A DNA stretch of 64,000 nt, from NCBI RefSeq assembly GCF_023516455.1, contig NZ_JAMGBA010000002.1, positions 272,501 through 336,500 on the forward strand. The letters run 5' to 3'. The notes beneath the pieces were generated by a model, which worked only from the letters and a program-made list of their open reading frames with translations, was not told the DNA's origin and did no database searches. This document shows, piece by piece, positions 32,529 through 63,736 of this stretch (position 1 is the stretch's first letter; every line of letters starts with the position of its first letter). Made by a program: the position numbers and the translations under genes. This stretch comes from Sphingomonas caseinilytica. GTDB lineage: Bacteria; Pseudomonadota; Alphaproteobacteria; Sphingomonadales; Sphingomonadaceae.

Positions 32529-33497
32529 TTGAGCGACCGGCGCTTCATGCTCGAAGCGGCGCGGCTCGGCGAAGCCGCCCGTGGCCGCACCGCCCCAAAC
32601 CCCAATGTCGGCTGCCTGATCGTCAAAGACGGCGAGGTCGTCGGCCGAGGAGCGACCGCTCCCGGTGGCCGGCCGCACGCCGAAGCGGTGGCGCTGGCCG
32701 ATGCAGGTACCAAGGCAAAGGGCGCTACCCTCTATACGACCCTGGAGCCCTGCGCCCACGCCAGCGAGCGCGGGCCGACCTGCTCAACCCTGATCCCCGA
32801 GGCCGGAATCGCCCGGGTGGTGATCGGCATCAAGGATCCCGACCCGCGAACGGCCGGGCAAGGCATCAAGCTGCTGAAAGCCGCCGGGATCGAAGTGAAG
32901 ACGGGCGTCGGCCGGGAGTTCTCCAAGGACAGCATGTCCGGCTATCTGAGCCGGGTCGAGCGGGGCCGGCCGCGCATCACGTTGAAGCTTGCACTGTCGA
33001 TCGACGGCAAGATCGCGCTTCCTTCTGGCGAATCCAAATGGATCACGGGCGAGGATGCGCGCGCGCATGTCCATCTGGAACGGGCGTCGAGCGACATGAT
33101 CCTGGTTGGGCGCGGGACATATATGGCCGATCAGCCCAAGCTGGACGTGCGCCTGCCGGGGTTGGAACAATGGTCGCCGAGACGCGCGCTGTTGACCCGC
33201 GGCGAAGCGGTCAAGGGATGGGAAATCCTTTCTTCTCCGAAGGATGTCTATCGACTTCATGACGTCAACGACCTTCTGGTCGAGGGCGGTTCGGCCACTG
33301 CGACCGCATTCCTGGCGGCCGACCTGGTCGACCGGATCCTGATCTACCGGGCGCCGATCTTGGTCGGCGAGGGCAAGTCGAGCGTCGGCTACATCGGGCT
33401 GGACGCAATTGCTGACGCCCATGGCCGGTGGAAAGCCGGGGACGGCTCGCGGCTTGGCATCGACCGGCTCGAAGTCTACGAGCGCGTTCGCAATTAG
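32529..33497 (+). CDS. ribD: Bifunctional riboflavin deaminase/reductase RibD
   Basis: 322 residues. The N-terminal deaminase has the zinc ligands HAEAVAL and LEPCAHASERGPTCST; the C-terminal reductase shows PRITLKLALSIDGKIAL, SKWITGEDAR and LLVEGGSATATAFL. It performs the second and third steps of riboflavin synthesis. The start is probably TTG at 32529, right after the upstream gene. No FMN riboswitch (RFN element) fits in the 6-bp spacer. Confidence 0.95.
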   Translation: MSDRRFMLEAARLGEAARGRTAPNPNVGCLIVKDGEVVGRGATAPGGRPHAEAVALADAGTKAKGATLYTTLEPCAHASERGPTCSTLIPEAGIARVVIGIKDPDPRTAGQGIKLLKAAGIEVKTGVGREFSKDSMSGYLSRVERGRPRITLKLALSIDGKIALPSGESKWITGEDARAHVHLERASSDMILVGRGTYMADQPKLDVRLPGLEQWSPRRALLTRGEAVKGWEILSSPKDVYRLHDVNDLLVEGGSATATAFLAADLVDRILIYRAPILVGEGKSSVGYIGLDAIADAHGRWKAGDGSRLGIDRLEVYERVRN

Positions 33498-33512: not shown

Positions 33513-34115
33513 ATGTTCACCGGCATCATCACCGACATCGGCACTGTCCGCAAAGCCGAGCAGAAGGGCGACCTGCGCCTCACCATCGGTTGCGAATATG
33601 ACCTGGATACCGTCGACCTGGGCGCATCGATCGCCTGTTCCGGCGCCTGCCTGACCGTGGTCGACAAGGGCCAGGACTGGTTCGCGGTCGACATCAGCCA
33701 GGAGACTGTGTCCAAGACCGCGCCGGGACTTTGGACCGAAGGTGCGCGCCTCAATCTGGAGCGGGCGCTGAGGGTCGGCGACGAATTGGGCGGCCATATC
33801 GTTACCGGGCATGTTGACGCGGTCGCCACCGTGACTCGCGCCGAAGAGGTTGGCGGTAGCATCGACATCAGCATCGAGGCGCCGCGCGCGCTTGGCGGCG
33901 GCATCGCGCCCAAGGGATCGATCGCGCTCGACGGCGTTTCGCTGACCGTCAACGAAGTTGAAGATGCGGGCGATGCCACCAGCTTCACGATCAACCTGAT
34001 CCCGCACACCGCCGAGCACACTACGTTCGGCGGGATCGCGGCGGGGCGGAAGCTGAACCTCGAGATCGACGTGCTGGCGCGTTACCTCAAGCGGATGACC
34101 GACGCGCGCGGCTAA
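33513..34115 (+). CDS. ribE: Riboflavin synthase subunit alpha
   Basis: 200 residues, two lumazine-binding barrels in tandem (MFTGIITDIGTVRKAEQKG and, about residue 97, HIVTGHVDAVATVTRAEEV). Dismutates two 6,7-dimethyl-8-ribityllumazine molecules to riboflavin. GSIALDGVSLTVNEVE is the conserved second-domain site. 15 bp after ribD; AGGAG precedes the start. Confidence 0.96.
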   Translation: MFTGIITDIGTVRKAEQKGDLRLTIGCEYDLDTVDLGASIACSGACLTVVDKGQDWFAVDISQETVSKTAPGLWTEGARLNLERALRVGDELGGHIVTGHVDAVATVTRAEEVGGSIDISIEAPRALGGGIAPKGSIALDGVSLTVNEVEDAGDATSFTINLIPHTAEHTTFGGIAAGRKLNLEIDVLARYLKRMTDARG

Positions 34116-36101: not shown

Positions 36102-36569
36102 ATGAGCGTCGCCTTCCGCCGGGAAAGCGATGAAGAACATCTCGAGCCGAAGTTTGAGCTGCCGATCCCCCCTGGGCCGAATTTGGTAACGCCGCGCGGT
36201 TTCGAGTTGATCAGGGCGCGCAACGAGGAGCTGGAAGCCAAGCTTGAGAGCCAGATGTCCGAAGAGGAACGCAAGTCCGTGCTGCGCGATGCCAAATACT
36301 GGCGCCAGCGGCTGGCAAGCGCGGAGCTTGCGCCACCTGCGGATGGCAGCGAAGTCGCGCTGGGGACACGTGTCACTTTCGTGCGCAATGGCCAAACACA
36401 GACGCTGGACGTGGTCGGGCATGACGAAAGCGAACCGTCCGCCAACCGCGTCGCTTTCACTGCCCCGCTGGTTCGTGCGCTGATGGGTGCGGAAATCGGC
36501 GACGAAGTCGAGTTTGCGTCGGATGACGAACCCATTTTGATCTTGGCCGTTACGGCATCAAGCGTATAA
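36102..36569 (+). CDS. GreA/GreB family protein with shortened coiled coil
   Basis: 155 residues. The C-terminal FKBP-like domain (LGTRVTFVRNGQTQTLDVVGHDESEPSANRVAFTAPLVRALMGAEIGDEVEF) matches Gre factors. The N-terminal part (VTPRGFELIRARNEELEAK...LRDAKYWRQRLASAEL) is about 20 residues shorter than the E. coli GreA coiled coil and lacks the GDLKENAEY tip whose acidic residues act in the RNA polymerase channel. It therefore probably binds polymerase without stimulating transcript cleavage. Divergent from the ABC-F gene; its stop codon lies inside the first repeat of the ribBA operator region. Confidence 0.82.
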   Translation: MSVAFRRESDEEHLEPKFELPIPPGPNLVTPRGFELIRARNEELEAKLESQMSEEERKSVLRDAKYWRQRLASAELAPPADGSEVALGTRVTFVRNGQTQTLDVVGHDESEPSANRVAFTAPLVRALMGAEIGDEVEFASDDEPILILAVTASSV

Positions 36570-36628
36570 TGTGATACAGAGTCTGAACTGGGTCGTTTTT
36601 CCCTAGATTATCACATTATGGTGTGATA
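36566..36628. promoter_or_regulatory. Operator-like repeats (TGTGATA x3) before ribBA
   Basis: Between the Gre-like gene and ribBA three TGTGATA half-sites occur: forward at 36570-36576, reverse (TATCACA) at 36609-36615, forward at 36622-36628. The last two form a 7-bp inverted repeat with a 6-nt spacer, and ATAATGTGATA (36566-36576) is the exact reverse complement of TATCACATTAT (36609-36619). The DNA is AT-rich against a GC-rich background. Together they look like a looped or dimeric repressor site; the helix-turn-helix in RibBA is the obvious candidate binder. Confidence 0.65.
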
Positions 36629-36639
36629 GCGGCCCCGCC

Positions 36640-37926
36640 ATGTCCACGACTCTGATTGAGCGGCTGACCGCGCTGGTAGACAGCGGCGAAGCTAGCCGCA
36701 GCGGGCTGGCGCGTGCCGCCGGACTTCACCCCAATTCCCTGCGCAAGCTGGGCGCCACCGACTGGAACCCGACGGCCGATACGCTGGTGCGGCTGGAGAA
36801 GCTGATCGACGGCGGAGTCCAGGACGTTCTGGTCGGGGCCGAAGCGATCATCAACGAAGCGCGCAACGGACGCATGTTCATCCTGGTCGACGACGACGAC
36901 CGGGAGAATGAGGGCGACCTGGTCATCCCCGCGCAGATGGCGACACCCGATGCGATCAATTTCATGGCCCGGCACGGCCGCGGCCTCATCTGCCTGGCGC
37001 TGGGCAAGGAACGGGTCGACCAGCTGGGCCTGGAGCCGATGGCGCGGGTCAACGGGACGAGCATGGAGACGGCCTTCACCGTCTCGATCGAGGCCCGCGA
37101 AGGAGTGACGACGGGGATCAGCGCCGCCGACCGGGCGCGGACCATCGCGGTCGCGATCGACGCGGGCAAGGGGCCGGACGCGATCGTTTCGCCGGGTCAT
37201 GTCTTCCCGCTGGTCGCCCGTCCGGGCGGCGTGCTGGTGAGGGCCGGCCATACTGAGGCGGCGGTCGACGTATCGCGGCTTGCCGGCCTCAATCCCAGCG
37301 GTGTGATCTGCGAGATCATGCGCGAGGACGGGACGATGGCCCGGCTCGACGATTTGATGGAGTTCGCCAAGATCCACGGCCTCAAGATCGGGACGATCCG
37401 CGACCTCATCGCCTATCGGCTGAAAAAGGATCATATGGTGGAGCGGGTTGCCGAGACCCGCTTCACCTCCCGGTCCGGGGCGAGCTGGAACGCCGAGGTT
37501 TTCCGCGACAAGGCGAGCGGTGAGGAGCAGCTCGCGCTGGTTCATGGGGCGATCGACCCGGGCCAGCCAACGCTGGTCAGGATGCATTCGATCGACCTGT
37601 TCGCCGATGTGCTGGGCGAGAAGTCCCAGCGCGCCGGGCTGCTCGACGGCGCCATGGCGATGATCGAGGCGGAAGGATCGGGGGTAATCGTTGCGCTGCA
37701 TGCGGCGGCGCCGGGATCGCTGTCGCTGTCGGCCAACCTCCGATCCGGCAAGCCAGCCGAGAGCAGCCAGGCGCTGAGGAGTTATGGGATCGGAGCACAG
37801 ATCCTGGCCGCGCTCGGAATCCACGACATGATCCTCTTGTCCAATACGCGGCATTCGCCGGTCGGCCTGTCCGCCTATGGGCTGGCGATCGTCGAAGAGC
37901 GCTGCATCCAGACTCCGGAGAAATAG
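36640..37926 (+). CDS. ribB: 3,4-dihydroxy-2-butanone 4-phosphate synthase with N-terminal HTH and degenerate GTP cyclohydrolase II domain
   Basis: 428 residues in three parts. Residues 1-58 are an XRE-like helix-turn-helix ([34 protein letters not shown]). Residues about 66-270 are DHBP synthase with the active-site loop [12 protein letters not shown] (84-94), [13 protein letters not shown] and [13 protein letters not shown]. The C-terminal part resembles GTP cyclohydrolase II but where the catalytic zinc cysteines should be it reads [21 protein letters not shown], so that activity is probably lost and another gene must supply RibA. It leads into ribH. The HTH could let the enzyme bind the repeats just upstream and sense its own pathway. 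Confidence 0.92.
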
Positions 37927-37927
37927 C

Positions 37928-38347
37928 TTGGCCCATGTGCTGATTGCCGAGGCGCGATTCTACGCGCATCTCAACGACATGCTGCTGGATGGAGCGCGGG
38001 GCGCGATCGAGGCGGCCGGACACAGCCACGAGACGATCACCGTTCCGGGAGCGCTCGAGCTTCCCGGCGCGGTCGCACTGGCGGCGGAGAGCGGAAACTA
38101 TGACGCCTTTGTCGCGCTGGGCGTCGTCATCCGCGGCGAAACCTATCATTTCGAAATCGTCGCCGGTGAAAGCGCGCGCGGGCTGATGGCGCTGACCATG
38201 GACGGGCTGGCCGTCGGCAACGGCATCTTGACCGTGGAAAATGAAGCGCAGGCGATCGCTCGCGCCAACCCGAAGCACGCCAACAAGGGCGGAGGCGCGG
38301 CTGAGGCTGCCCTGGCGTTGCTGGAGCTGAAGTCGAAACTTAGCTGA
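37928..38347 (+). CDS. ribH: 6,7-dimethyl-8-ribityllumazine synthase
   Basis: 139 residues, penultimate riboflavin enzyme. [13 protein letters not shown], the [12 protein letters not shown] turn, [18 protein letters not shown] and the [16 protein letters not shown] end with the phosphate-binding Arg region match the family. The start is a TTG at 37928, 1 bp after the ribBA stop, with GGAG placed inside the ribBA end. Convergent with the SOUL gene (8-bp overlap). Confidence 0.94.

Positions 38348-61222: not shown

Positions 61223-63736
<2,514 letters not shown>

Follow-up and report, generated by a model that had tools for sequence, protein, structure and literature searches.

The window, by which we mean the whole 64-kb stretch of DNA analyzed, contains a riboflavin enzyme gene, ribBX, that is preceded by a palindrome and followed by ribH. 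The features of this locus, with coordinates in the window, are as follows.

32529..33497, + strand: ribD; TIGR00326 above cut-off; about 3.1 kb upstream of ribBX; no operator.
33513..34115, + strand: ribE (riboflavin synthase); NF006767 above cut-off; about 2.5 kb upstream of ribBX; no operator.
36102-36569: gene for a GreA/GreB-like factor; Pfam C-terminal domain E 2.2e-13; under the NCBIfam cut-offs.
36543..36570, + strand: promoter-like TTGGCC-16-TATAAT; 10/12 bases; 1 found versus 0.3 expected in shuffles.
36566-36576, + strand: outer half-site ATAATGTGATA; 11-bp inverted copy of the left half of the operator.
36609-36628, no strand assigned: predicted operator palindrome TATCACATTATGGTGTGATA; 20 bp; contains the conserved element.
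36640-37926, + strand: open reading frame of HTH-RibBX; 428 aa; ATG at 36640.
36640..36813, + strand: N-terminal Cro/CI-type helix-turn-helix (HTH) domain, residues 1-58.
36841..37416, + strand: RibB (DHBP synthase) domain, residues 68-259; Pfam DHBP_synthase E 1.1e-82; DRENEGD motif intact.
37441..37899, + strand: RibX domain, GTP-cyclohydrolase-II-like, residues 268-420; Pfam GTP_cyclohydro2 E 4.8e-32.
37928..38347, + strand: ribH (lumazine synthase); Pfam DMRL_synthase E 1.2e-40; the next gene after ribBX, on the same strand.

ribE is separated from ribBX by a gene on the opposite strand, assigned by eye to the ABC-F type, and by the Gre-like gene. The latter directly precedes the outer half-site, and the promoter-like TTGGCC/TATAAT sits inside its last codons. 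ribH is the probable co-transcribed partner of ribBX; among the matches listed in the family search described below, it lies directly downstream in at least 79 of the 115 loci whose RibBX carries the HTH, the remaining 36 being left out.

The DRENEGD motif of the RibB domain is invariant in 84 of 84 aligned rows. The C-terminal domain scored 40.9 bits against the TIGR00505 ribA model, for which the cut-off is 205.85, and no cysteine is kept in its zinc-site stretch (residues 310 to 335) across the 84 aligned rows. Within residues 265 to 428, cysteine occurs in more than three rows at column 269 only (12 of 84), outside the zinc-site stretch. Because the zinc-site cysteines are gone from the C-terminal domain, the protein is, as judged from its sequence, HTH-RibBX. 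A bifunctional RibBA was rejected on sequence grounds, namely the missing zinc cysteines and the score below the ribA cut-off. A true RibA scoring above the cut-off is encoded elsewhere in the source genome (G000:C2:352695-353216), and RibA above the cut-off was found in 142 of 149 Sphingomonadaceae genomes.

Taken as a single sequence, the HTH of this protein remained below the Pfam and NCBIfam cut-offs, and it gave no HTH_3 match alone. The domain was recognized through its relatives, since HTH_3, HTH_26 and HTH_31 match family members; with HTH_3 (Cro/CI), 38 of 63 family members give a match at E values of 0.1 or better, the best being 1.6e-5. Eleven HTH columns are invariant across the 63 rows (A24, G28, L29, H30, N32, L34, R35, W42, N43, P44 and T48), the same set is invariant in the 84 full-length rows, and the conserved core includes WNPTxxTLxKL. 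The AlphaFold (AF2) model of the HTH has a pLDDT of 84, with a regular third (recognition) helix not assigned. A Foldseek search with this model returned SinR, DdrO and phage repressors at probabilities of up to 0.98 (SinR, E 0.3) and E values of 0.3 or worse, and when the HTH profile was run against PDB sequences, the best hit (E 0.09) was chance-like. The earlier note had described the protein as RibBA with an N-terminal HTH at residues 1-58. The HTH is borne out by the HTH_3 matches of its relatives, whereas the enzyme is better named RibBX, given the lost zinc cysteines.

Upstream of the gene, there are two copies of TGTGATA, at 36570 and 36622, and one of its reverse complement, TATCACA, at 36609; the 64 kb hold one further copy of either word, at 62741. 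The last half-site ends at 36628 and is followed by 11 bases and then by the ATG. The three half-sites before the gene, and the 11-bp perfect inverted repeat with a spacing of 32 bp that had been described there earlier, were confirmed by coordinates, the repeat consisting of ATAATGTGATA (36566-36576) and TATCACATTAT (36609-36619). The earlier note had stressed this repeat and had not picked out the palindrome at 36609-36628, which is what contains the conserved unit. The outer TGTGA is 41 bp away from the TCACA of the operator, on its upstream side. This is roughly double the spacing in many relatives, where TGTGA starts at -20 (24 loci) or -21 (22 loci) among the 115 HTH-carrying loci of the matches listed. 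In the window genome, the best promoter match is the upstream TTGGCC-16-TATAAT, which overlaps the outer half-site, its -10 element running into it; the promoter embedded around the operator is weak (5/12). Protein bound at either promoter arrangement could hinder the polymerase.

The protein was used to search 149 family genomes, 146 of which gave a match, some with two or three loci; named relatives include Sphingomonas, Sphingomicrobium, Novosphingobium, Sphingobium and Erythrobacter. The 150 RibBX loci studied are the matches listed in this search, and further matches exist. Among these listed loci, the HTH is present in 115 and absent from 35, and the split is clean: scored against the HTH of the window, the weakest HTH-carrying locus reached 44.2 bits and the best HTH-less locus 2.2 bits. 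An operator was called when at least 10 of 12 bases matched TCACATNNNNATGTGA within 165 bp around the start. By this measure the operator is present in 113 of the 115 listed HTH-carrying loci, 60 of which have a perfect 12/12 site; the two others, L080 and L092, reach only 9/12. None of the 35 listed HTH-less loci has a site at this level in the 165-bp window, which for these loci was anchored on the RibB core and therefore takes in some coding sequence (best, 8/12), and none has one when the window is widened to 415 bp (best, 9/12). Among the controls, a site was called in 8 of 575 dinucleotide shuffles, in 4 of 573 windows placed within the genes and in 4 of 345 windows further upstream. In a second named sample of 80 loci, whose HTH-carrying loci were found by a motif of the HTH, the operator is present in 77 of 77 HTH-carrying loci, with 71 absent from the first draw; the remainder are two loci with neither HTH nor site and one too short to judge. 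The earlier note had named relatives that keep the HTH and lose the repeats as the case that would speak against it. That case was looked for, and these counts (113 of 115 versus 0 of 35 listed loci, and 77 of 77) go the other way.

A FastTree tree was built from the enzyme minus its HTH. On this tree the HTH label changes 7 times, and at least 5 of the changes are forced by supported branches. Because the label changes repeatedly, the link between HTH and operator is not one inherited accident; the site follows the domain and not just the lineage. Covariation of HTH residues with operator bases gave signals, from statistics that ignore relatedness. Among the matches listed, ribE lies directly before ribBX in 38 HTH-carrying loci, with a gap of at least 40 nt, and in 25 of the 35 HTH-less loci, with a gap of 7 to 44 nt. 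Since those 25 HTH-less genes sit in an operon behind ribE, part of the contrast between the two groups is a matter of having a promoter at all. The operator is present at all 38 of the listed HTH-carrying genes found behind ribE. Both HTH-RibBX and at least one HTH-less RibBX occur in G085 (L082/L129), G122 (L107/L147), G127 (L053/L151) and G133 (L120/L130/L144). G010 and G090 gave only weak matches to the query (E values of 1e-6 and 2e-7, respectively) and have RibA over the cut-off, with no RibBX found.

When the upstream regions were aligned on the palindrome, TTG-like bases preceded it, TGATA closed it and little conservation was seen further out. In relatives, the operator often lies between -35-like and -10-like elements. 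Promoter hexamers flanking the operator, scored at 16- to 18-bp spacing only, reach at least 7/12 in 54 of the 115 listed HTH-carrying loci, compared with 4.7% when the flanks are taken from elsewhere. The start codon follows the 16-mer by 10 to 15 nt in 78 of the 115 HTH-carrying loci among the matches listed. Because the start codon follows the site at once, this arrangement suggests a leaderless ribBX mRNA in many relatives.

The number of sites per genome is small. The pattern ATCACATN4ATGTGAT occurs exactly in 31 of the 149 genomes, in one copy each, and 30 of these copies are at ribBX; the reversed pattern occurs in none of the 149. The odd site out, in G017, is at an unrelated place (L185), where the open reading frames look unlike rib genes by eye. 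In the source genome, the ribBX site is alone at 0 to 1 mismatch, and at 2 mismatches three other sites appear, the same number as for the reversed control. At 1 mismatch, the 149 genomes contain 81 forward sites and 3 sites of the reversed control. Sorted by eye from their coordinates, the 75 forward sites listed comprise 63 at ribBX and 12 elsewhere; six lie outside the 75 listed, four of them in G017. G017 has four sites at 0 to 1 mismatch though its two listed RibBX proteins are without the HTH. The extra 1-mismatch sites looked scattered in the four stretches read (five of the 12 sites). In G101, which has HTH-RibBX, two ribBX-type operator sites lie 110 bp apart just before a phage-terminase-like gene (L343:1985-2112, by eye); this pair reflects either chance or a phage that uses the repressor of its host.

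A wider regulon was rejected on the basis of the single 0- to 1-mismatch site in the source genome and of 2-mismatch sites at the level of the control. Because the source genome has just one site at 0 to 1 mismatch, the controlled unit is probably ribBX(-ribH). The pattern looks like self-control of ribBX and probably of ribH, not a regulon, with a few extra targets possible in single genomes. The earlier proposal, an enzyme that would repress its own operon, is supported by an operator tied to the HTH; what it controls is probably not the whole rib pathway, the one site being at ribBX.

The absence of an FMN riboswitch at the rib genes, noted earlier, held up. Within the window there was no Rfam match at the gathering score and no RF00050 upstream. 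Across the family, a search with stricter filters, by which some weak matches are lost, found an FMN riboswitch in 0 of 149 genomes, compared with 7 of 14 control genomes. FMN riboswitch control of ribBX was therefore rejected, the window and the 149 genomes being without a match. Judged by sequence comparison, ribBX is very probably under the control of its own product, a role that usually falls to a flavin riboswitch.

We consider it likely, with good confidence, that HTH-RibBX is an autorepressing biosynthetic enzyme, that is, a trigger enzyme, and from the sequence we infer its binding, its repression and the geometry of its dimer. In the proposed mechanism, the Cro/CI-type DNA-binding domain fused to RibBX would act as a pair. 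DHBP synthases are dimers, so the twofold symmetry would be supplied by the enzyme; once the RibB domain has dimerized, two HTHs would face the palindrome TCACATNNNNATGTGA in the promoter of the enzyme's own gene. The bound enzyme would keep RNA polymerase off, and transcription of ribBX(-ribH) would drop as the enzyme accumulates. The domain most likely to sense a ligand, and so to tune DNA binding to the level of flavin or of a precursor, would be RibX, which has no zinc cysteines; that its ligand is a flavin or precursor is a guess.

Among the other explanations, the strongest is that the HTH binds the palindrome as an activator of its own promoter, or keeps expression at a constant low level, without metabolite input; we regard this as unlikely. 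MerR-type activators, too, bind between -35 and -10, the position the operator often occupies here. MerR spacers are long, however, and the embedded promoters score well at 16 to 18 bp, the sole spacings tried. The second half-site upstream also resembles repressor operators, and negative feedback without a ligand would still count as autorepression. On the other side, PMC3518464 describes two XRE-type proteins of Wolbachia, wBmxR1 and wBmxR2, that bind the ribA promoter and activate a ribA reporter. Because XRE-type proteins activate a riboflavin gene reporter in Wolbachia, the sign of regulation is the least certain step of the autorepression mechanism.

It is much less probable that the palindrome is the site of a separate regulator and that the HTH of RibBX does another job, such as partner binding or folding. 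The site is known by sequence only, and CRP-type sites use TGTGA and TCACA words too, which leaves this reading some room. Against it, the site tracks the HTH (113 of 115 versus 0 of 35 listed loci) through 5 or more changes of the label, and the genomes that have a site mostly have a single one, which is no regulon. The arms read TCACA-N6-TGTGA, the reverse of a CRP site, and a CRP-type site was rejected on this reversed arm order. Least probable of all is that the motif owes its conservation to some other role in the promoter or RNA, such as a start signal or a leader hairpin: it overlaps an extended -10-like TGATA and often adjoins the start codon, but it is absent before the listed HTH-less ribBX genes, both of its arms are conserved while conservation is near 0 at most flanking positions, and the operon position behind ribE (25 of the 35 listed HTH-less genes) explains only part of the contrast, as all 38 listed HTH-carrying genes behind ribE have the site.

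Relatives of the HTH point to where this domain may have come from. In searches of 385 class genomes, scored on at most 16 first-look candidates per genome, and of 118 order genomes, all matches with E values below 1e-20 fall in Sphingomonadaceae, and none of ten weaker-match loci read outside the family has the HTH on RibB. A 94-aa stand-alone HTH (L244) is divergent from an S24-type repressor-like gene, by eye, in what looks like a prophage-like switch, and L190 is a 78-aa stand-alone HTH of the same kind. Each is preceded by three 16-bp sites that match TCGCATNNNNATGCGA at 10 to 11 of 12 bases and the ribBX operator at 8 to 9 of 12; the TCGCATNNNNATGCGA consensus was set by eye from these same sites and is one base per arm off the ribBX operator. 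At each locus one site ends 10 to 12 bases before the start codon. The chance values for the best site at each of the two loci are modest (0.013 and 0.09), but chance is a poor explanation for six sites of the same form in two genomes. The region before the HTH of L191 has no clear palindrome (P 0.59).

In a sister family, f177, 2 of 29 genomes carry a related HTH fused to the N terminus of CoaBC, at the following places.

L243:1714-3186, - strand: HTH-CoaBC.
L245:696-2177, - strand: HTH-CoaBC.

The fusion partner, named from its sequence, we take to be CoaBC, a flavoprotein of coenzyme A synthesis. The protein search links these proteins to the N termini of HTH-RibBX (E values down to 2.6e-8), and the regions before the two HTH-CoaBC genes have no clear palindrome (P 0.57 and 0.93). 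The HTH of RibBX is probably of prophage-repressor descent. A fuller history can be put forward tentatively, as one we find possible and on balance doubtful: Sphingomonadales would have turned a small Cro-like DNA-binding domain of a prophage into a plug-in autorepressor, joined in separate events to two enzymes of cofactor synthesis, RibBX in Sphingomonadaceae and CoaBC in the sister family. On RibBX, this domain would have taken the place of the FMN riboswitch, and the cyclohydrolase-like domain would have found a new use as a sensor of flavin or precursor.

For a large group without a detected FMN riboswitch, HTH-RibBX offers a concrete candidate answer to how riboflavin is controlled, and with it a possible role for the RibX domain. 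It would also be a natural example of an enzyme in which a DNA-binding domain and its operator have come or gone as a pair several times, a system for studying phage regulators turned to housekeeping and perhaps a means of influencing vitamin B2 production. Known kinds include trigger enzymes, RibBX and, in archaea, RbkR; in the open-licence PMC literature, we found no report of an HTH fused to RibB or RibBX with an operator, the combination predicted here.

RbkR is an HTH fused to a CTP-dependent riboflavin kinase that controls riboflavin genes in a wider regulon. HTH-RibBX is like it in joining a riboflavin-pathway enzyme to a DNA-binding domain and unlike it in its enzyme, its HTH and its single site in the source genome, RbkR being archaeal. 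BirA, PutA and NadR are enzyme-repressors, metabolic enzymes that bind DNA and control their own pathway; HTH-RibBX differs from them in serving another cofactor pathway and in having an HTH of the phage Cro/CI type. HTH-less relatives of HTH-RibBX occur in the same family, and therefore gain and loss of the HTH can be traced on the tree. With the Cro/CI (HTH_3) phage repressors it shares the HTH, by profile, and palindromic 16-bp sites at a promoter; unlike them, it has the HTH fused to a housekeeping enzyme, from which dimerization would be expected to come. The RibBX proteins of Shewanella oneidensis and Aeromonas salmonicida are described in PMC10012899 as an active RibB with a GTP-cyclohydrolase-like domain that lacks critical zinc residues, and the X domain of the Shewanella protein is reported there to regulate the activity of RibB, the mechanism being unknown. 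Those proteins share with HTH-RibBX the RibB-X fusion, the loss of the zinc residues and a separate RibA in the genome; the description of them there mentions no N-terminal HTH or operator, and the term "helix-turn-helix" occurs 0 times in the main text. Like wBmxR1 and wBmxR2 as described in PMC3518464, HTH-RibBX would pair an XRE-type protein with the promoter of a riboflavin enzyme gene, a pairing predicted here from sequence; the Wolbachia proteins are stand-alone activators of reporters that also bind the promoters of secretion genes.
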